64,000 bases of DNA from Levilinea saccharolytica. GTDB taxonomy: Bacteria > Chloroflexota > Anaerolineae > Anaerolineales > Anaerolineaceae. The stretch covers positions 62,001 through 126,000 of the forward strand of contig NZ_LGCM01000045.1 of the NCBI RefSeq assembly GCF_001306035.1. The letters are read 5' to 3'. Position numbers and translations under genes: made by a program. The notes under the pieces are model-generated. The model ran no database searches. It had not been told where the DNA came from and saw nothing but the letters and a program-made list of their open reading frames with translations. Positions 5,083 to 29,300 of the stretch are shown in pieces (positions within the stretch are counted from its first letter, which is position 1; every line of letters starts with the position of its first letter).

Positions 5083-5469
5083 CTAATCCGGGCCGTCTTC
5101 GGCCTGCGGCCCGCCCATGGGACAGCGCGGCTGGATGCGCTGCGGGTCGCAAAAAGCCCCAAAGGCCTGACGCAAATTCTCCAGCGCCTCCGGGTTGGGT
5201 GAATAGTACACCCAGCGCGCATCGTGCGCGTCGCGTTCCACCGTCACCAAACCGGCTTCACGCAGCACTCCCAAATGGTGCGAGATCAAATTGGGCGCAA
5301 TTTGCAGCGCTTCTCCCAGGTCGTGGTTCGACTGTACCCCCTCGATGATCTTTTCCAGCAGCAGCAGCCGGTTTGGCTCGCTGATAGCTTTCAGCTCGCG
5401 GGCAAACTGGTTGATGTCCTCTGAAGAAAAAACGGATGATTCCATGCGCAGCCCCTGAACGGTGGTCAT
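5083..5469 (-). CDS. ArsR-family regulator, mirror copy
   Basis: Exact mirror of 18022-18408, a 128-residue winged-helix regulator lying downstream of the tungsten-enzyme genes. Its candidate -10 (TATAAC on the minus strand, 5477-5482) ends seven bases before the start codon. Confidence 0.88.
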   Translation of the reverse strand: MTTVQGLRMESSVFSSEDINQFARELKAISEPNRLLLLEKIIEGVQSNHDLGEALQIAPNLISHHLGVLREAGLVTVERDAHDARWVYYSPNPEALENLRQAFGAFCDPQRIQPRCPMGGPQAEDGPD

Positions 5470-7455: not shown

Positions 7456-9219
7456 TTACATTTCTTTAAAGACCGAATCCAGAGCCTCATCCGGCACATC
7501 AAAGACCTGATTATGCGGGGGCAGCGGTTCGAGGTGCATGAATTCGGGCAGGCGGTCAGCTTCGGCTTTGATGCCGGCAGCTTCGTTGAAGGCGCGTTCC
7601 ACCTTCAGCACTTCGGCGCCGTAAGCCACCACATCGTCTGCGCTCCAGTTGGTACCCAGCACGCCGTTGCACTCCTGGATGAAGCCTTCGAAGCCGCTGG
7701 CGATGTCGAGGATGGGGAAGGCGATGAACAGGCAGTGGCCGGAAGAGTCAATGAAGGCGGTGGTGGCCTGGAAAGCGCGGCTGAGGGCGGCTTTGCCTTC
7801 GGGGCTGAGCGGATCCTGCTTGCCGCTGACGCCCAAAATTTCAGGGCAGATGGTGTAACCAGCGGTGTGGTCAGCGCCCATGGTGGTGGTGGCGTAAGTG
7901 ATGCCAATGCCCTTCACGGCGCGCGGCTCATAGGCGGGCATGGCCTGGCCTTTGACGGTGGGCACGCGGCGCACGCCCAGCAGTTTGCCTGCCACTTCGG
8001 CCCCGCCGCCCAGCATCTTGCCGGTAGGCGTGCCTTTGCCCATCTCATGAATCAGCTGGATGGCGCCCTTGCTGTCGCCGAAGGGGATCACCCCGCCTTC
8101 CATAGCCACGCCCAGGGTCACGCCGGTTTCGATAGTGTCCAGGCCGTACGCGTTGCACAGATGCACCATGGTGGCGATGTCGTCCAGGTCGTCCACGCCC
8201 AGGTTGGCGCCCAACGCCCAGGTGGATTCGTACTCGATACAGGAAGCGCGCTCGCTCTTGTCGGGGTTGAAGAGGGTATTGGAACATTGGATGATGCAGC
8301 CGGGGGAACAGGCGTGGTTGTACACCTCTTTGCCGGTGCGCTCTTTGTTGGTTTCAAAGATGGCTTCGCCAGCGGTCTTGGGGGCGCCGTCAAAGCGGCC
8401 CGCCGAGAAATTGCGGGTGGGCAGGCCGCCCGCTTCATTAAGAATGTTGACCAACACAGCCGTGCCGTAGGTGTTCAGGCCGCCCTTGGGCTTGGAGATG
8501 GGGTGCGTGCGGATGGCGTCAATCATCTTCTTGCGGCCTTCGTCAAAGAGGGCCTTATCGACAATTTCCACACCCGGCGAACCTTTTTCGTTCAGCACAA
8601 TGAATTTGAGCCGCTTGGAGGCCATCACCGCACCCACGCCGCCGCGTCCGGCGTAACGGCTGGGGCGCTTGGCCTGGTCGTTGAAGACGATGCCGGAGTT
8701 ACCGTAGCCGTATTCGCCCGCGTTGCCGATGCTGGCAATAGAAATGCGGCCCTCAAAGCGCTGGTAAATCATCGGGTAGGATTCGTACACATCCTTGCCG
8801 GTGTATTCGCTGGCGTCAAAGAATTCCACCACCGGTTTTTGAGCGTCTTTATCCCAATGGATAAAGGTTCCCCAGAATTTGTCTGTATCTTGGGGCAGAC
8901 CTTCCACAATCAGGGCGCGAATGCGCATGCTGGCCAGATCGGGTCCCCAGGAGGTTCCGGCATTGGCTTCTTTAATACCGCCGGTGAGCGGCGATTTGCA
9001 GCCGACCGAGATGCGGGCAGAGGTGGGAGCCGGCGTGCTGGTGACGATGCCCGCCGAAAAGACCAGTTTGTTGTTGGGGCCGAGCGCGTGGCACAGCGGC
9101 GGCACTTCTTCCGCCACAATTTTTGAGGTCAGGGCGCGTCCGTAAAGAGTACGGAAGCGTTCTGGGACGGCTTCCCATTTGGACGTGCGGTCTGTCATGT
9201 TAATGCGTAAGATCCACAT
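7456..9219 (-). CDS. aor: Aldehyde:ferredoxin oxidoreductase (tungsten), mirror copy
   Basis: Exact mirror of 14272-16035, encoding the same 587-residue tungsten-pterin oxidoreductase. See the right-arm entry for cofactor motifs and context. Confidence 0.93.
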   Translation of the reverse strand: MWILRINMTDRTSKWEAVPERFRTLYGRALTSKIVAEEVPPLCHALGPNNKLVFSAGIVTSTPAPTSARISVGCKSPLTGGIKEANAGTSWGPDLASMRIRALIVEGLPQDTDKFWGTFIHWDKDAQKPVVEFFDASEYTGKDVYESYPMIYQRFEGRISIASIGNAGEYGYGNSGIVFNDQAKRPSRYAGRGGVGAVMASKRLKFIVLNEKGSPGVEIVDKALFDEGRKKMIDAIRTHPISKPKGGLNTYGTAVLVNILNEAGGLPTRNFSAGRFDGAPKTAGEAIFETNKERTGKEVYNHACSPGCIIQCSNTLFNPDKSERASCIEYESTWALGANLGVDDLDDIATMVHLCNAYGLDTIETGVTLGVAMEGGVIPFGDSKGAIQLIHEMGKGTPTGKMLGGGAEVAGKLLGVRRVPTVKGQAMPAYEPRAVKGIGITYATTTMGADHTAGYTICPEILGVSGKQDPLSPEGKAALSRAFQATTAFIDSSGHCLFIAFPILDIASGFEGFIQECNGVLGTNWSADDVVAYGAEVLKVERAFNEAAGIKAEADRLPEFMHLEPLPPHNQVFDVPDEALDSVFKEM

Positions 9220-9283
9220 AGCTTCCTCCACTGGATGGAACATAAAAAGAGGGGCTTTCTTTTGGGCGGGGATGGAGCGAGGG

Positions 9284-9372
9284 AAAAGAAAAAGCGCGCC
9301 TCCTGGGGTGGGCAGGGCGCGCAAAAAAACGCAAAGTGACCCTGCTCCGCAGCAGTTGGGGGTCTCCTTTGC
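9284..9372 (-). terminator. Tandem intrinsic terminators in AOR leader, mirror copy
   Basis: Mirror of 14119-14207, two hairpins each followed by a T-rich run on the minus strand, between the AOR promoter and its start codon. Confidence 0.8.
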
Positions 9373-9475
9373 ACACTGGCAGGCGATGAGAATTGCTCCT
9401 CATGCCCTATCGTTCTCCTATCCGAGACGGAATCAGAGAATCGGAGAGTTTTCAATTGAAGCTCACTACTGTTTC

Positions 9476-9530
9476 ATTATACAGACGAAGAGACACAAAT
9501 GTCAACCGAAATTGAATCAATTTTGGTTGA
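9476..9530 (-). promoter_or_regulatory. AOR promoter and palindromic operator, mirror copy
   Basis: The -35 (9500-9505) and -10 (9476-9481) are mirror images of 13986-14015. The 29-bp palindrome 9502-9530 overlaps the -35 hexamer. Confidence 0.8.
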
Positions 9531-11916: not shown

Positions 11917-12456
11917 GGCGGGAAGGATCTGTTTTGGGTCAAAATTGGGGTGAGCATCTATGATGAAAACGGCGCACTCGTGCCCGTGGTGGGCGGGGAC
12001 AGCCCGGTGATTTTGCCCCCGGGGTGCAGCCCGCAAACCGACCCCCAGGCAGAAGCCAACCTGCTGACCTGGATCAACGCCGCCCGCGCCGCCGAGGGGT
12101 TGGCCGGGCTGACCCGCCAAAGCGCGTTAGACGCCGCCGCCGCCGTGCACAGCGCCGATATGGGCTGCAATCAATTTGTGGATCACACCGGCTCCAACGG
12201 CTCCACCTGGAACACGCGCATCCGCGATCAGGGCTACAAGGCCGCTGCCGCCGCTGAAAATATCTATGTGGGCGACCCGGCTTTTGGCGGCGACGCCCAG
12301 GGAGCCTGGGAGTGGTGGATGAACAGCCCCGTGCACCGCGGCAATATCCTCAGCGCCAAAGTGACCGAGGTTGGCATGGCCTATGCCTATGTGCCCGGCA
12401 GCCCCTTTAAAGGCTATTACACCCTGGTGTTTGCCCGTCCCGCGGCGGGGCCGTAA
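11917..12456 (+). pseudogene. CAP-domain protein, 5'-truncated copy
   Basis: Second copy of the gene at 11035-11916, missing the Ig-like domain. The native part starts at the fold-back join and encodes the end of the Ig-like domain and the whole CAP domain. An open frame extends upstream to 11371 on this strand, but that part is the antisense of the other copy and gives an implausible His/Gly-rich translation. The truncation is created by the palindrome junction and may not exist in the organism. Confidence 0.8.
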
Positions 12457-12458
12457 CG

Positions 12459-13868
12459 CTAAGGTGTGCTGGCTGTGACCGTGCGGGTGGGAGTGGGGAG
12501 GATCAGGCGCAGGTAAATTTCTGGAATCCAGCCGATTCGCCCTTCTGCGTCGCGCACTTCCACCCAGGTCAGCCCGTTGAACGTCTCGCGCCCGTATAAC
12601 CGAGTCAGTTTTTGTCCGGGGAGCAAAGGACCAATGCTCGGCCCGCCAGGGAACTGCACGATGCGCATCTCCGGCAGCCCCACCCGCACCACCAAGCCCT
12701 CGGCGGGGGTAGCTGTGGCCGTGGGTGTGCCGCTGGGCAGGGGTGTGAGGGTGTGCGTGGGCAGGGCGGTGGCCGTGGGCAGGGACGTGGCGGTGGCGGT
12801 GGGCGTGTACGTGGCAGTTGGGCTGGGGCCAGGGGTGAAGGTGAAGGTCGGCGTGGGCGGGATAAGCGGATCTAAATTTTCGGCGATCACCTGGCTGACC
12901 TTTAAAGATACCGGCTGATGCAGGCCCTCCACGATGGCCTTCTGCAGGGCCACCACCTGCTCATAGCGCAGCGAAGATCCCGTGCGCACAGTCAGCAGCA
13001 TATCCAGTTTGGTGCCGTTGCGGTTCACCTCCAGTTCCACCAGCTCCGCCCCACTCAAATTTTCCACCTCGCGCATGACCACGGATTGGATCAGGCGGTT
13101 GGCGGAGGCCTCGCGGAAGAATTTGACGCTGAAAAAGGTGAGGGGGATGAGCAGCAGGCCGGTGAGGGCGGCCGAAAGCACCAGGCTGCGGGGGAGAGAG
13201 CCGTTTTTTAGCCGCAAATTGGATGAAAAGCCGCGCAGGAAAAACACCAAAACCGAGGCAAATGCGATGGTCACGGCGTTGGTGATGAACAGCAGCAGCG
13301 CCCCTCCCGCCACATCCCAGCGCTGCAAAGCCAGCCCAATCCCCACCGTGCACAACGGGGGCATGAGGGCCGTGGCAATGGCCACCCCCGGCAGGGCCGC
13401 AGAGATATTTGGCTGGGTCATGGCATAAGCCGCCGCCACCCCGCCGGCGAAGGCGATCACCAGATCAATGGGACTGGGACGGGTACGGGCCATCACCTCG
13501 CGCGGCAGCTCTTGGATGCTGAAAAAGGGCAGCAGGTTATTGAGCAGGGTCATCAGCGCGGCCAGCGCCACTGCTAAAAGCGCCCCGCGCAGCAGGGCCG
13601 AGGCCGCATTGCGCAGCAGCCGCGTGTTGCCGGTCAGCGAAGCCAGGCCGATACCGATAATGGGCGACATCAGCGGAGCCACGAGCATGGCCCCAATGAT
13701 CACCGCAGGCGAATCGGTAATCAACCCCAGGGTGGCGATGCTGCAGGACAGCACCACCAGCAGGAAGTAATCAAAACCGGGCGAGGCCGCCGGTGTGACT
13801 TCGGCGATCACCGCGTTGCAATCCTCCGGCGGCAGGGGCTTGATGAGCGAACGGTACCAGGGTCTCAT
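12459..13868 (-). CDS. DUF389 membrane protein with Thr/Pro linker and SH3 tail
   Basis: This 469-residue protein begins MRPWYRSLIKPLPPEDCNAV, preceded by a strong GGAGG ribosome site. Residues about 30-250 form a DUF389 membrane core: several hydrophobic segments, one carrying GAMLVAPLMSPIIGIGLA, which is characteristic of the family. After a soluble alpha/beta stretch comes a linker rich in Pro-Thr repeats (about residues 335-390), then an SH3-like domain containing RLYGRETFNGLTWVEVRD. The role of DUF389 is not established. The SH3 tail suggests contact with cell wall or surface polymers. It is divergent from the AOR gene and convergent with the CAP gene. Confidence 0.85.
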   Translation of the reverse strand: MRPWYRSLIKPLPPEDCNAVIAEVTPAASPGFDYFLLVVLSCSIATLGLITDSPAVIIGAMLVAPLMSPIIGIGLASLTGNTRLLRNAASALLRGALLAVALAALMTLLNNLLPFFSIQELPREVMARTRPSPIDLVIAFAGGVAAAYAMTQPNISAALPGVAIATALMPPLCTVGIGLALQRWDVAGGALLLFITNAVTIAFASVLVFFLRGFSSNLRLKNGSLPRSLVLSAALTGLLLIPLTFFSVKFFREASANRLIQSVVMREVENLSGAELVELEVNRNGTKLDMLLTVRTGSSLRYEQVVALQKAIVEGLHQPVSLKVSQVIAENLDPLIPPTPTFTFTPGPSPTATYTPTATATSLPTATALPTHTLTPLPSGTPTATATPAEGLVVRVGLPEMRIVQFPGGPSIGPLLPGQKLTRLYGRETFNGLTWVEVRDAEGRIGWIPEIYLRLILPTPTRTVTASTP

Positions 13869-13960
13869 GAGCCTCTTCTTCCTCCTTCGTCCATGCGGTC
13901 TTGATAGTATTGTACCCTGGAAGGCGTAAGGCTGCTCCGCATACCGCCCGACAGCAATGA

Positions 13961-13989
13961 TCAACCAAAATTGATTCAATTTCGGTTGA
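13961..13989. promoter_or_regulatory. 29-bp palindromic operator over the AOR -35
   Basis: Two 14-base arms, TCAACCAAAATTGA and TCAATTTCGGTTGA, surround a single central T and are inverted repeats with one mismatch. The right end overlaps the -35 hexamer of the AOR promoter (13986-13991), a position expected to give repression when occupied. The binding protein is unknown; the nearby ArsR-family protein is one candidate. Confidence 0.75.
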
Positions 13990-14015
13990 CATTTGTGTCT
14001 CTTCGTCTGTATAAT
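13986..14015 (+). promoter_or_regulatory. AOR promoter
   Basis: TTGACA at 13986-13991 and TATAAT at 14010-14015, both exact consensus, separated by 18 bases. The predicted transcription start is near 14022, which leaves a leader of about 250 bases before the AOR start codon. Confidence 0.85.
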
Positions 14016-14021
14016 GAAACA

Positions 14022-14118
14022 GTAGTGAGCTTCAATTGAAAACTCTCCGATTCTCTGATTCCGTCTCGGATAGGAGAACGATAGGGCATGAGGAGCAATT
14101 CTCATCGCCTGCCAGTGT
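14022..14118 (+). ncRNA. Structured 5' leader of AOR, possible cofactor-sensing element
   Basis: The first part of the leader contains local inverted repeats: TCTCC (14044-14048) with GGAGA (14073-14077), and ATGAG with CTCAT around 14088-14105. With the downstream terminators it resembles a transcription-attenuation leader. A molybdenum/tungsten-cofactor riboswitch is an obvious hypothesis given the gene, but I could not match it to the known Moco motif by eye. An independent small RNA ending at the terminators is also possible. Confidence 0.45.
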
Positions 14119-14168
14119 GCAAAGGAGACCCCCAACTGCTGCGGAGCAGGGTCACTTTGCGTTTTTTT
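14119..14168 (+). terminator. Intrinsic terminator 1 in AOR leader
   Basis: GCAAAG (14119-14124) pairs with CTTTGC (14155-14160), GACC with GGTC, and CTGCT with AGCAG around a GCGG loop. A run of seven T follows at 14162-14168. Confidence 0.8.
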
Positions 14169-14207
14169 GCGCGCCCTGCCCACCCCAGGAGGCGCGCTTT
14201 TTCTTTT
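14169..14207 (+). terminator. Intrinsic terminator 2 in AOR leader
   Basis: GCGCGCC (14169-14175) pairs with GGCGCGC (14191-14197), followed by TTTTTCTTTT. It directly abuts terminator 1, so most transcripts should stop before the AOR gene unless antitermination occurs. Confidence 0.82.
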
Positions 14208-14271
14208 CCCTCGCTCCATCCCCGCCCAAAAGAAAGCCCCTCTTTTTATGTTCCATCCAGTGGAGGAAGCT

Positions 14272-16035
14272 ATGTGGATCTTACGCATTAACATGACAGA
14301 CCGCACGTCCAAATGGGAAGCCGTCCCAGAACGCTTCCGTACTCTTTACGGACGCGCCCTGACCTCAAAAATTGTGGCGGAAGAAGTGCCGCCGCTGTGC
14401 CACGCGCTCGGCCCCAACAACAAACTGGTCTTTTCGGCGGGCATCGTCACCAGCACGCCGGCTCCCACCTCTGCCCGCATCTCGGTCGGCTGCAAATCGC
14501 CGCTCACCGGCGGTATTAAAGAAGCCAATGCCGGAACCTCCTGGGGACCCGATCTGGCCAGCATGCGCATTCGCGCCCTGATTGTGGAAGGTCTGCCCCA
14601 AGATACAGACAAATTCTGGGGAACCTTTATCCATTGGGATAAAGACGCTCAAAAACCGGTGGTGGAATTCTTTGACGCCAGCGAATACACCGGCAAGGAT
14701 GTGTACGAATCCTACCCGATGATTTACCAGCGCTTTGAGGGCCGCATTTCTATTGCCAGCATCGGCAACGCGGGCGAATACGGCTACGGTAACTCCGGCA
14801 TCGTCTTCAACGACCAGGCCAAGCGCCCCAGCCGTTACGCCGGACGCGGCGGCGTGGGTGCGGTGATGGCCTCCAAGCGGCTCAAATTCATTGTGCTGAA
14901 CGAAAAAGGTTCGCCGGGTGTGGAAATTGTCGATAAGGCCCTCTTTGACGAAGGCCGCAAGAAGATGATTGACGCCATCCGCACGCACCCCATCTCCAAG
15001 CCCAAGGGCGGCCTGAACACCTACGGCACGGCTGTGTTGGTCAACATTCTTAATGAAGCGGGCGGCCTGCCCACCCGCAATTTCTCGGCGGGCCGCTTTG
15101 ACGGCGCCCCCAAGACCGCTGGCGAAGCCATCTTTGAAACCAACAAAGAGCGCACCGGCAAAGAGGTGTACAACCACGCCTGTTCCCCCGGCTGCATCAT
15201 CCAATGTTCCAATACCCTCTTCAACCCCGACAAGAGCGAGCGCGCTTCCTGTATCGAGTACGAATCCACCTGGGCGTTGGGCGCCAACCTGGGCGTGGAC
15301 GACCTGGACGACATCGCCACCATGGTGCATCTGTGCAACGCGTACGGCCTGGACACTATCGAAACCGGCGTGACCCTGGGCGTGGCTATGGAAGGCGGGG
15401 TGATCCCCTTCGGCGACAGCAAGGGCGCCATCCAGCTGATTCATGAGATGGGCAAAGGCACGCCTACCGGCAAGATGCTGGGCGGCGGGGCCGAAGTGGC
15501 AGGCAAACTGCTGGGCGTGCGCCGCGTGCCCACCGTCAAAGGCCAGGCCATGCCCGCCTATGAGCCGCGCGCCGTGAAGGGCATTGGCATCACTTACGCC
15601 ACCACCACCATGGGCGCTGACCACACCGCTGGTTACACCATCTGCCCTGAAATTTTGGGCGTCAGCGGCAAGCAGGATCCGCTCAGCCCCGAAGGCAAAG
15701 CCGCCCTCAGCCGCGCTTTCCAGGCCACCACCGCCTTCATTGACTCTTCCGGCCACTGCCTGTTCATCGCCTTCCCCATCCTCGACATCGCCAGCGGCTT
15801 CGAAGGCTTCATCCAGGAGTGCAACGGCGTGCTGGGTACCAACTGGAGCGCAGACGATGTGGTGGCTTACGGCGCCGAAGTGCTGAAGGTGGAACGCGCC
15901 TTCAACGAAGCTGCCGGCATCAAAGCCGAAGCTGACCGCCTGCCCGAATTCATGCACCTCGAACCGCTGCCCCCGCATAATCAGGTCTTTGATGTGCCGG
16001 ATGAGGCTCTGGATTCGGTCTTTAAAGAAATGTAA
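14272..16035 (+). CDS. aor: Aldehyde:ferredoxin oxidoreductase (tungsten)
   Basis: A 587-residue member of the AOR family, which oxidises aldehydes to carboxylic acids (or works in reverse) using a tungsten bis-pterin site and one [4Fe-4S] cluster, with ferredoxin as electron partner. The start is chosen for the MWILRINM N-terminus typical of the family and the site TGGAGGAAGC just upstream. Cluster ligands are likely C304, C308 and C312 (C-x3-C-x3-C, one residue longer in the first gap than the classic C-x2-C-x3-C) plus C496. The EYE motif at 329-331 and the pterin-binding segment YAGRGGVGAVMASK (about 189-202) are present. Length is close to the family norm. It heads a cluster with a maturase and two sulfur-carrier-like proteins and is controlled by an elaborate promoter and leader. 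Substrate unknown. Confidence 0.93.
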   Translation: MWILRINMTDRTSKWEAVPERFRTLYGRALTSKIVAEEVPPLCHALGPNNKLVFSAGIVTSTPAPTSARISVGCKSPLTGGIKEANAGTSWGPDLASMRIRALIVEGLPQDTDKFWGTFIHWDKDAQKPVVEFFDASEYTGKDVYESYPMIYQRFEGRISIASIGNAGEYGYGNSGIVFNDQAKRPSRYAGRGGVGAVMASKRLKFIVLNEKGSPGVEIVDKALFDEGRKKMIDAIRTHPISKPKGGLNTYGTAVLVNILNEAGGLPTRNFSAGRFDGAPKTAGEAIFETNKERTGKEVYNHACSPGCIIQCSNTLFNPDKSERASCIEYESTWALGANLGVDDLDDIATMVHLCNAYGLDTIETGVTLGVAMEGGVIPFGDSKGAIQLIHEMGKGTPTGKMLGGGAEVAGKLLGVRRVPTVKGQAMPAYEPRAVKGIGITYATTTMGADHTAGYTICPEILGVSGKQDPLSPEGKAALSRAFQATTAFIDSSGHCLFIAFPILDIASGFEGFIQECNGVLGTNWSADDVVAYGAEVLKVERAFNEAAGIKAEADRLPEFMHLEPLPPHNQVFDVPDEALDSVFKEM

Positions 16036-16053
16036 GCTGCTGTATACCCTCCG

Positions 16054-16089
16054 GGAAAGGAGAGGGGCGCACCAGCCCCTCTCCTTTCC
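16054..16089 (+). promoter_or_regulatory. Perfect 15-bp hairpin between AOR and maturase genes
   Basis: GGAAAGGAGAGGGGC (16054-16068) and its exact complement (16075-16089) flank the loop GCACCA. No T-run follows directly. It may stabilise the AOR message 3' end or reduce read-through into the maturase gene, so that the abundant enzyme and the catalytic maturase are made in different amounts. Confidence 0.8.
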
Positions 16090-16123
16090 ACGCGCATTTT
16101 ACCGGTAGACTCAGGAGCGCTCC

Positions 16124-17311
16124 ATGCCCAAATTGACCCCCGATGAACACGGCCGTTTTCACCTTCCAGCGGATTTTCTCAACCGCCGCCGCCTGGAGCC
16201 TCAGGCTGAATACTGGCTGGATGAGCGCGACGGCGATCTCATCCTGCACCCTCGCCGCCCAGATGTCCGCAAGCTGTATATCGAAGTCACCACCGCCTGC
16301 AATCTCAACTGCCAGACCTGCATCCGCCATTCCTGGGTGGATCCCAGCGCACACATGAAGCGCGACACCTTCGAGCGCATTTTGGCGGACCTGCCCGCTT
16401 TCCCCGCTCTCGATCAGGTGGTGCTGACCAGCTTTGGCGAACCTCTGGTGCACCCGCGCATTCTGGAGATCATCGAAAAGCTGCGCGAGCGCAATTTGAT
16501 GGTCACTTTGGGGACCAACGGGCTGCTGCTGGACGACCGCATCGCCCGCGAATTGGTGCGGCTGGGGGTCAGCCAGGTGGTGGTTTCCATTGACGGCATC
16601 CAGCCGGACACCTATGCGGATGTGCGCGGGGCGCAGCTGGCCGAGGTGCTGGAAAATATTCAGCGCCTGAACGAAGCCAAGCGTCAGGCCGGGGCGGTTC
16701 AGCCCACACTGGGGGTCGAATTTGTGGCCATGAAAAGCAATGTGGCCGAGCTGGACAGCCTGGCCGAGTTGGCCGGACGGCTGGGGGTGGCGCGCGCGGT
16801 GGTTTCCAACGTGCTGCCCTACACGGCGGAGATGAACCAGGAAAAGCTCTACGGCTATGAACCCATCGCGCCGCTCAAATCCGGCGGGTGGCCGGTGCGT
16901 TCGGACGCCTGGATGAAATGGGGCATCACCGAGCTGCCGCGCATGCACTGGGGGGGCGAGCCCCACTGCCGCTTTGTCCACGATTATTCCATCGTCATCG
17001 GCTGGGATGGGGGCGTTTCGCCCTGCTATGCCCTGTCGCACAGCTATCACTACTACACCATTGACGGCATCGAAAAAGAGGTGCGCCGCCACACCTTCGG
17101 CAATGTGCACCAGTCGTCTCTGGCGGATATTTGGATGAGCGAGGAGTACACCCGCTACCGCAGCGCCGTGCGTGCCTTTCATTTCCCCTCCTGCCCCGAC
17201 TGCGACCTGCGCGAGACCTGCGATCTGCGCCTGGAAAACAATGCCTGTTGGGGGCCGAACCCCTCCTGCGCCGACTGTCTGTGGGCGCAGGATATTGTCC
17301 GCTGTCCGTGA
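16124..17311 (+). CDS. Radical SAM/SPASM tungsten-oxidoreductase maturase
   Basis: This 395-residue protein starts with a SpoVT/AbrB-like segment (residues about 5-45), then a radical SAM domain with C59-x3-C63-x2-C66 (CNLNCQTC) and the GEPL motif. The C-terminal third has many cysteines (CPDCDLRETCDL, CADCLW), typical of a SPASM domain binding extra Fe-S clusters. It matches the family of radical SAM maturases encoded beside tungsten-cofactor oxidoreductases. Its exact chemistry is not established for that family; a role in maturing AOR or its cofactor is inferred from the neighbourhood. The ribosome site AGGAGC lies 8 bases before the ATG. It is 88 bases downstream of AOR and 10 bases upstream of the sulfur-carrier gene. 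Confidence 0.9.
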   Translation: MPKLTPDEHGRFHLPADFLNRRRLEPQAEYWLDERDGDLILHPRRPDVRKLYIEVTTACNLNCQTCIRHSWVDPSAHMKRDTFERILADLPAFPALDQVVLTSFGEPLVHPRILEIIEKLRERNLMVTLGTNGLLLDDRIARELVRLGVSQVVVSIDGIQPDTYADVRGAQLAEVLENIQRLNEAKRQAGAVQPTLGVEFVAMKSNVAELDSLAELAGRLGVARAVVSNVLPYTAEMNQEKLYGYEPIAPLKSGGWPVRSDAWMKWGITELPRMHWGGEPHCRFVHDYSIVIGWDGGVSPCYALSHSYHYYTIDGIEKEVRRHTFGNVHQSSLADIWMSEEYTRYRSAVRAFHFPSCPDCDLRETCDLRLENNACWGPNPSCADCLWAQDIVRCP

Positions 17312-17567: not shown

Positions 17568-17960
17568 ATGAAACTGGATGTGTGGTTGTATGGGGTGCTG
17601 CGTAAATATGGGACGGATCCCAGCCAGATCGGCTTTGCCCGGGTCAATGCTGAATTGCCCGCGGGAGCCAGTATGGGCGACCTGCTAGCGATGCTGCACC
17701 TGCCCACGCAGGAGCGCGGCATCACCTTTGTTAATGGGAATCTCTCGGCCCTGCCGGGTTTCCAGCCGGATCTGGGACATGTCTTTGAAGACGGCGACCG
17801 CGTGGCCTTGTTTGATCTCAAATCCATGTGGCCTTTCCAATACCGCAACGGGGCGGCCATGACCGAGGCCATGCGTCAGGCTGTGGCTGAAAACCCGGAA
17901 AGCCTGCTGCATCACCAGCATGGGGATGAAGACTCGCGGGGCGAAGATCAGGAACAATAA
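17568..17960 (+). CDS. Second MoaD/ThiS-like protein with C-terminal extension
   Basis: A 130-residue protein preceded by the strong site GGAGGAGG. Residues 1-85 resemble a MoaD/ThiS beta-grasp fold (FVNGNLSALPGF, FEDGDRVALFD), but instead of ending in Gly-Gly it continues with a charged tail (ending HHQHGDEDSRGEDQEQ). It cannot act as a classical thiocarboxylate carrier unless processed. It may be a scaffold or partner of the first MoaD-like protein or of AOR. That role is inference from position only. Confidence 0.72.
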   Translation: MKLDVWLYGVLRKYGTDPSQIGFARVNAELPAGASMGDLLAMLHLPTQERGITFVNGNLSALPGFQPDLGHVFEDGDRVALFDLKSMWPFQYRNGAAMTEAMRQAVAENPESLLHHQHGDEDSRGEDQEQ

Positions 17961-18021: not shown

Positions 18022-18408
18022 ATGACCACCGTTCAGGGGCTGCGCATGGAATCATCCGTTTTTTCTTCAGAGGACATCAACCAGTTTGCCCGCGAGCTGA
18101 AAGCTATCAGCGAGCCAAACCGGCTGCTGCTGCTGGAAAAGATCATCGAGGGGGTACAGTCGAACCACGACCTGGGAGAAGCGCTGCAAATTGCGCCCAA
18201 TTTGATCTCGCACCATTTGGGAGTGCTGCGTGAAGCCGGTTTGGTGACGGTGGAACGCGACGCGCACGATGCGCGCTGGGTGTACTATTCACCCAACCCG
18301 GAGGCGCTGGAGAATTTGCGTCAGGCCTTTGGGGCTTTTTGCGACCCGCAGCGCATCCAGCCGCGCTGTCCCATGGGCGGGCCGCAGGCCGAAGACGGCC
18401 CGGATTAG
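18022..18408 (+). CDS. ArsR-family winged-helix regulator
   Basis: A 128-residue HTH protein. Residues 20-95 show the ArsR pattern: FARELKAISEPNRLLLLEKI, the recognition segment PNLISHHLGVLREAGLV and the wing VERDAHDARWVYYS. The C-terminus has cysteines (AFCDP, RCPMGG) that could bind metal or sense redox state. It lies 61 bases after the second MoaD-like gene on the same strand, so it may be co-transcribed or driven by its own -10. The palindromic operator upstream of AOR is a possible target. An internal ATG at 18046 is an alternative start. Confidence 0.88.
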   Translation: MTTVQGLRMESSVFSSEDINQFARELKAISEPNRLLLLEKIIEGVQSNHDLGEALQIAPNLISHHLGVLREAGLVTVERDAHDARWVYYSPNPEALENLRQAFGAFCDPQRIQPRCPMGGPQAEDGPD

Positions 18409-29269: not shown

Positions 29270-29300
29270 CGTAAGGGCGAGGTACTACCTCGCCCTTACG
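29270..29300. repeat. 31-bp perfect palindrome downstream of protease gene
   Basis: CGTAAGGGCGAGGTA and its exact complement are separated by one base. It may act as a transcript 3' end, although no T-run follows. Confidence 0.7.

Follow-up and report, generated by a model that had tools for sequence, protein, structure and literature searches.

What controls the gene for aldehyde ferredoxin oxidoreductase (AOR) in Levilinea saccharolytica, and what might the RNA made ahead of it sense? AOR is a tungsten enzyme, and its gene in the window (the whole stretch of 64,000 nucleotides analyzed here) is preceded by a structured leader of about 250 bases, as the original prediction had stated. On balance, we favor the explanation that the AOR operon is under a compact ON riboswitch of the Moco/Tuco type, which would most likely sense the tungsten pyranopterin cofactor (Tuco). 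The features concerned are collected in Table 1.

Table 1 Features of the AOR locus, in window coordinates.
Feature	Position	Strand	Basis
Inverted copy of 13961-14300, probable assembly artifact	9191..9530	-	exact reverse complement
Palindrome, putative operator over the -35	13961..13989	.	self-complementarity; G000/G001 comparison
Sigma-70-type promoter, TTGACA-N18-TATAAT	13986..14015	+	promoter scan; related leaders
Compact Moco/Tuco-family aptamer, ~85 nt (putative)	14044..14128 (model match 14042-14130)	+	family match; covariation
P1 5′ strand UCUCC, pairs with 14124-14128	14044..14048	+	15-copy alignment
P2: outer 14051-14055/14074-14078, inner 14060-14063/14067-14070	14051..14078	+	15-copy alignment
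P4, GCAA (GNRA) loop 14095-14098	14085..14109	+	alignment; loop script
P5, two pairs 14111-14112/14119-14120	14111..14120	+	15-copy and 76-match alignments
Terminator 1, predicted expression platform	14119..14168	+	stem -18.8 kcal/mol
AAAGGAG, common to aptamer 3′ side (14124-14127 = P1) and terminator 1 5′ arm	14121..14127	+	
Second hairpin with T-rich tail	14169..14202 (hairpin 14169-14197)	+	sequence, folding; by eye in this genus only
Orphan Shine-Dalgarno-like AGGAGG	14187..14192	+	22/27 leaders
Shine-Dalgarno GGAGG of AOR	14262..14266	+	sequence
AOR (AFOR_N, AFOR_C)	14272..16035	+	domain and structure matches
Tungsten cofactor oxidoreductase radical SAM maturase	16124..17311	+	TIGR04317, over cut-off
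MoaD/ThiS-like small protein	17568..17960	+	weak evidence
ArsR-family regulator	18022..18408	+	domain matches

The AOR operon and its promoter region

The closest solved structures to the AOR product were aldehyde:ferredoxin oxidoreductases, and the maturase behind it matched TIGR04317 with 422 bits against a cut-off of 380. The predicted structure of the small protein that follows (pLDDT 77.7) was nearest to MoaD, SAMP1, and ThiS, with weak E-values of at least 0.004. Of 31 genomes, 8 (its own among them) encoded a homologue; one homologue (L136:5124-5531) was located directly behind a compact copy of the RNA described below.

The promoter had been described as fully consensus, and this was confirmed: the -35 hexamer (13986-13991) and the -10 hexamer (14010-14015) are separated by 18 nt and match at 12 of 12 positions. 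With a looser threshold (9/12), the scan of 13000-17000 returned one promoter-like site against a shuffle mean of 1.1. Among 28 related leaders (defined below), 22 had a site of at least 10/12 in the ~150 nt preceding the RNA, as compared with 4.2% of shuffles; the promoter type is thus conserved among them. Transcription would start near 14022. The palindrome reported to overlap the -35 was likewise found, with 26 of its 29 positions self-complementary (13 of 14 arm pairs). In G001, which belongs to the same genus, both arms were changed together (TCAACC/GGTTGA versus TCAATC/GATTGA), and in the two genomes searched (G000, to which the window belongs, and G001) the palindrome was present at this site only. 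It is a plausible operator, and the ArsR-type protein encoded downstream might, speculatively, bind it. A gene for a DUF389 membrane protein (12459-13868, minus strand) diverges from AOR, with the AOR promoter in the intergenic region between them; the palindrome could act on both genes. Elsewhere in the window, a perfect 29-nt hairpin (29271-29299, 28 of 28 arm positions) is unrelated to the operator.

The original prediction was silent on the inverted copy, of which 13961-14300 is the exact reverse complement. The window lies on contig C64 (160,531 bp), a fold-back with 131 mismatches in 72,255 base pairs compared about its center, all of them at C64:73575 or nearer the center. Window 1-23490 (C64:1-147490) forms a perfect fold-back palindrome with arms of ~73.5 kb and a 342-nt spacer, which is probably a false join. 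In G001, the sequence that corresponds collinearly to the left arm and spacer continues with no fold-back; in G000, this continuation is located on contig C30, with 91% identity. The first 37 bases of C30 equal window 12022-12058 in the right arm and then diverge, ~105 bases outside the spacer, as would be seen where an assembly graph branches. The fold-back is very probably an assembly artifact and the true continuation seems to be on C30; a less likely alternative is that some of the population carries a true inverted duplication.

The leader RNA and its relation to RF01055

Upstream of AOR orthologues, identity around 14044-14128 was 76-85%, and beyond this segment little of the leader aligned in relatives except G001. 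Fifteen copies shared a single fold, consisting of P1, a two-part P2, a GNRA-capped P4, and a P5 of two pairs, in which 99.0% of the cells pair and 43 cells were double-changed versus 13.9 in shuffles. In alignment A3 of 76 matches, which was fitted to the structure and so leans towards it, two-sided changes were observed in 20 of 26 pairs, and 391 cells were double-changed versus 97.9 in shuffles; P5 was present in all 76. The structure string of our model R1 has the P4 bulge one column off; the pair counts for the 15 copies use the corrected string, and the R1 searches of the order, the GTDB stretches, and the RF01055 loci all rest on the shifted one. The folding energy of the region was unremarkable (z -1.27 and -1.69) and is not counted as evidence. 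The segment 14044-14128 encodes a conserved, structured, and covarying RNA, and the stems expected in the AOR leaders of relatives were found.

These results bear on plain repression, in which a regulator would bind 13961-13989 and the leader hairpins would be incidental. The position of the palindrome over the -35 and its symmetric changes in G001 suit such a scheme, which conservation of the leader RNA across phyla with covariation makes very improbable as the whole account; an operator may act in addition to the switch.

The RNA was closely linked to AOR genes. Of the 11 best AOR orthologues, among which the window's own is counted, 9 had it and 2 (G021 and G030) were without it. Among 101 genomes of the family, 12 contained an exact pattern of its first half, and none contained the reversed control. 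A search of 400 genomes of the order with R1 yielded 30 matches in 27 genomes. The 25 matches with scores of at least 69 bits, which include both fold-back copies of G000, were all in sense orientation just upstream of AOR; the other five (39.7-43.1 bits) were longer or intermediate forms. The 28 related leaders are these 30 matches minus L089 (a fold-back duplicate) and L107, L108, L109, and L111 (40.9-43.1 bits, no AOR), plus G001, G005, and G013, with L112 kept; for the counts on 27 leaders (AGGAGG and P1 energetics), G019 was left out for Ns. The suggested separate small RNA of about 150-185 bases did not hold up against this distribution. With a strong promoter and a terminator, a terminated transcript of ~147 nt would indeed be made; since the strong matches in the order were invariably sense and just upstream of AOR, with no free-standing copy among them, we give a trans-acting role hardly any credence.

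Some of the other forms had different neighbors. L112 (1501-1590, minus strand, G010) is an intermediate form that scores 46.9 bits with RF01055; it is followed by a ferredoxin-type gene and by a second AOR distinct from the first, and its terminator is likewise built on AAAGGAG. The RNA of L111 precedes an Oxidored_molyb gene. L107 (G560), L108 (G076), and L071 (G011) are P3-less RF01055-type RNAs before an ABC_cobalt-type permease gene (the Pfam match is for L107 only, and L108 was assigned by its near-identical sequence); this permease is perhaps an unrecognized tungstate or pterin transporter.

A degenerate pattern over GTDB contigs gave 74 stretches, 73 of which were matched by R1; the remaining one (L160) looks like coding sequence and was dropped. 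Fifty-seven of the 73 copies were compact and 16 longer, and the plausible copies were mostly from Chloroflexota and Bacillota. Compact copies occurred in Chloroflexota, Bacillota (including Maledivibacter halophilus, Lutispora saccharofermentans, and Clostridium bovifaecis), Actinomycetota, a Caldisericaceae MAG, and one untitled bacterium; Anaerolinea thermolimosa and Bellilinea caldifistulae are further named strains with the RNA. The longer forms include those of Ignavibacteria, Spirochaetes, Leptospiraceae, and an Acidobacteriota MAG. AOR was encoded within 4 kb downstream of 46/57 compact and 6/16 longer copies, or 40/45 and 6/15 when at least 1 kb of downstream sequence was available. 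Five compact copies were exceptions without an AOR call: L132, L138, close to which a short frame matches AFOR_C (E 1.7e-11), and L149, L150, and L155, which precede a molybdopterin oxidoreductase split after ~192 codons, a split compatible with a selenocysteine formate dehydrogenase. Two loci contained two divergent RNA copies each (L133, 190-278 on the minus and 512-600 on the plus strand; L182, 4941-5038 on the minus and 5175-5270 on the plus strand), where two divergent genes may each carry a switch.

Over its full length, the model of RF01055, the Moco/Tuco family, aligned with 14033-14139 (26.5 bits; E 7.7e-5 for 111 nt and the whole library). The window copy is under the Rfam gathering cut-off of 36 bits, and three orthologue copies are over it (G004, 40.2; G102, 39.9; G096, 39.4 bits). 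The homology sought in the original prediction was therefore found, with the window's own copy below the cut-off. A scan of the window at the gathering cut-off gave no match, and RF01055 was listed neither at E≤10 over 401 nt of the window nor at E≤5 over the loci of six relatives; it matched in the 111-nt scan only, presumably because the filters are laxer on short input. Among 20 loci drawn from the 28-leader set, RF01055 was listed in four (46.9, 39.9, 39.4, and 35.3 bits) and passed the cut-off in three, which amounts to a blind spot of annotation. Conversely, when 20 RF01055 loci from the phylum were searched with R1, 10 matched at E≤10; four of these (L070, L082, L071, and L077, all P3-lacking as read by eye) had E-values of at most 5.4e-6. 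The moaA RNA of E. coli gave no match to R1 at E≤10. RF01055 was found in 33 of 201 genomes sampled from the phylum, G000 not being among them. Moco-II (RF01713) was not listed at E≤10, its presence in the library being assumed from the accession in PMC2864571.

The leader RNA has a P1 of CUCC/GGAG with GA and AAA flanks, a GNRA-capped P4, a short P5, and no P3; it lies upstream of Moco/Tuco genes and is linked to a tungsten enzyme. An imperfect script called the P4 loop GNRA in 50 of 57 compact copies; the loops, given here as description, were mostly GCAA or GUAA and not GAAA. A simple motif test for a tetraloop receptor in P2 was positive in 2 of 57 compact copies, and the window copy lacks this receptor. 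A first test of association between GAAA loop and receptor was rejected and its significant P discarded, as the loop finder had caught the GCAA of GCAAAGGAG; a stricter test was not significant (P 0.47). We conclude from the sequence comparisons that the leader RNA very probably belongs to the Moco/Tuco family, within which it appears as a divergent P3-less relative of RF01055, homologous yet under the curated score and receptor-less. We call it a variant of the Moco/Tuco kind because it has the core in common with RF01055, fails the curated score, and lacks the receptor. The tentative idea of a tungsten- or molybdenum-cofactor RNA thus gains support from the RF01055 homology and from the conserved, covarying stems upstream of AOR.

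The predicted expression platform

The segment AAAGGAG belongs both to the aptamer, at its 3′ side, and to terminator 1, in the 5′ arm. Across 72 copies (L125 was left out for Ns), the best terminator paired at least 4 of the 7 AAAGGAG bases in 42, as compared with 21 of 720 shuffles. At least 3 of the 7 were paired in 47/56 compact and 6/16 longer copies, leaving 9/56 compact copies without a terminator of the shared type; all these counts required -12 kcal/mol or better. By predicted folding of 27 leaders, the mean probability of P1 fell from 0.91 in the aptamer alone to 0.03 with 75 more bases, and enforcing P1 cost more than 2 kcal/mol over the best fold in 26 of 27 (7.4 for G000). The automatic search found no shared terminator in G001, G052, G043, and G019 and a weak one (2/7 bases) in G520 and G487; in G001, of the window's own genus, and in G052 the best terminator was placed elsewhere, and the incomplete sequence of G019 had none. 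Judged by sequence and energy only, the closing stem of the aptamer and the terminator are mutually exclusive.

Because the 3′ strand of P1 is the 5′ arm of terminator 1, and a ligand holding P1 would permit read-through, the RNA is predicted to be a transcriptional ON switch, which we consider likely. In our model, the strong sigma-70-type promoter would transcribe the operon through the riboswitch. When the cofactor, most likely Tuco, is present, the aptamer would be stabilized and P1 (UCUCC/GGAGA) would hold GGAG, such that terminator 1 could not form; RNA polymerase would then read into AOR, the radical-SAM maturase, and probably the small genes behind, the presumed extent of the operon. 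When the cofactor is missing, AAAGGAG would become the 5′ arm of terminator 1, and transcription would stop at about 14162-14168. The enzyme would thus be made only when its cofactor is present. Such ON logic would suit an enzyme that cannot work in the absence of its cofactor; the E. coli RNA, in contrast, is believed to turn off production of the cofactor (PMC2408646, in the part available). We infer the ON direction in the cell as well as the start and end sites. Transcription attenuation, proposed originally, is supported by the conserved, covarying stems upstream of AOR, its transcript ends being predictions.

Alternatively, the RNA might bind no pyranopterin and serve as an attenuator or OFF switch that responds to another factor, such as an RNA-binding protein or the apo-enzyme. 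Some other RF01055-type loci would agree with this: among 23 of these (weak or long hairpins included, L062 and L082 left out), eight had a separate downstream terminator, which would fit OFF control, seven a shared one, and eight none. Homology to RF01055 and the invariant core argue against this alternative, as does the use of the P1 strand by the terminator in 47/56 compact copies, which fits ON control; we hold it to be quite improbable.

Two abutting terminators had been described. Both hairpins are present in the window, but they are not one conserved device: by eye, the second was found among the related leaders only in G000 and, in a weaker form, in G001, and it looks lineage-specific. 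The automatic scan skips it, because its outer arms are separated by 15 nt, more than the scan allows for a loop. Between the terminator and the AOR start, AGGAGG occurred in 22 of 27 leaders versus 1.4% of shuffles, in G000 within the second hairpin. A small reading frame behind it was dropped, since no shared start or frame was seen by eye. The motif resembles the STAB-SD 5′ stabilizer of cry3A mRNA, as described in the available text of PMC4113751, in being a leader AGGAGG that seemingly starts no reading frame; it differs in being known here from sequence and in lying within a hairpin in G000.

The proposed ligand and known Moco RNAs

The tungsten form of the cofactor seems a better candidate ligand than the molybdenum form, and we hold this with reasonable confidence, because P3-less forms are tied to tungsten use (PMC2408646, in part) and because of the genes found here. 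In the available text of that study, P3-less Moco RNAs were linked to tungsten use in 17 of 19 organisms, and sensing of the tungsten cofactor by them was proposed in 2008, binding of the cofactor itself being a proposal there. The same riboswitch with the same ON logic might instead respond to the molybdenum cofactor, metal-free molybdopterin, or a bis-MGD form. The RF01055 homology would agree with this, since the E. coli RNA of this family responds to Moco but not to Tuco (PMC2408646, in part), and so would the three compact copies that precede a formate-dehydrogenase-type molybdopterin oxidoreductase rather than AOR, a point against our metal assignment. The missing P3, whose absence is tied to tungsten use (same source), the tungsten enzyme AOR near 46/57 compact copies, and a tungsten-cofactor maturase in the operon make a molybdenum-type ligand unlikely.

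With Tuco as the preferred ligand, we suggest tentatively, with slightly less than even confidence, that the compact copies form a separate riboswitch class, a dedicated ON sensor of the tungsten cofactor. Its members would be minimal P3-less, receptor-less Moco aptamers, present in several phyla and largely invisible to Rfam, that license synthesis of the tungsten AOR. If this is true, an RNA of ~85 nt could show how RNA tells the tungsten from the molybdenum cofactor. The short conserved RNA, its tight link to a tungsten enzyme, the simple terminator readout, and its presence in named strains make the ligand question directly testable.

In the open-licence literature, supplements apart, the compact form was not found described, and Fig. 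S4 of PMC2408646 may hold related forms; nor did we find there a riboswitch on AOR beyond PMC2408646 or a later test of its tungsten-cofactor proposal. Moco riboswitches are reported, in the available text of each source, upstream of moaA and moaC in Dehalogenimonas (PMC13390414), and in Acetobacterium bakii two Moco RNAs are described close to genes for molybdopterin (PMC6239172). A 2024 paper still called the exact metabolite of Moco riboswitches unidentified (PMC10845959, in part), and in 2025 the E. coli Moco riboswitch was inferred to modulate transcription termination (PMC12121620, in part).

Among known systems, the P3-lacking 'Tuco' subgroup of RF01055, as far as it is presented in the available text of PMC2408646, has in common with the compact form the CUCC-GA...AAAGGAG closing region, P2, the CGAUA-GG junction, a GNRA-capped P4, a 2-bp P5, the lack of P3, and a position upstream of pyranopterin-related genes; known RF01055 RNAs with GCAA loops are likewise without the receptor (same source). 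The compact form differs from RF01055 in its shorter P2 without a receptor of the usual type, its predominant loops, its P5 of GC/GC instead of CC/GG, its scores mostly below the Rfam cut-off, its tie to AOR, and a terminator built on the P1 strand. The Moco riboswitch of E. coli moaA shares family and fold core with the window RNA and, according to the available part of PMC2408646, differs in having P3, in OFF control of cofactor synthesis, and in a ribosome site within P1.
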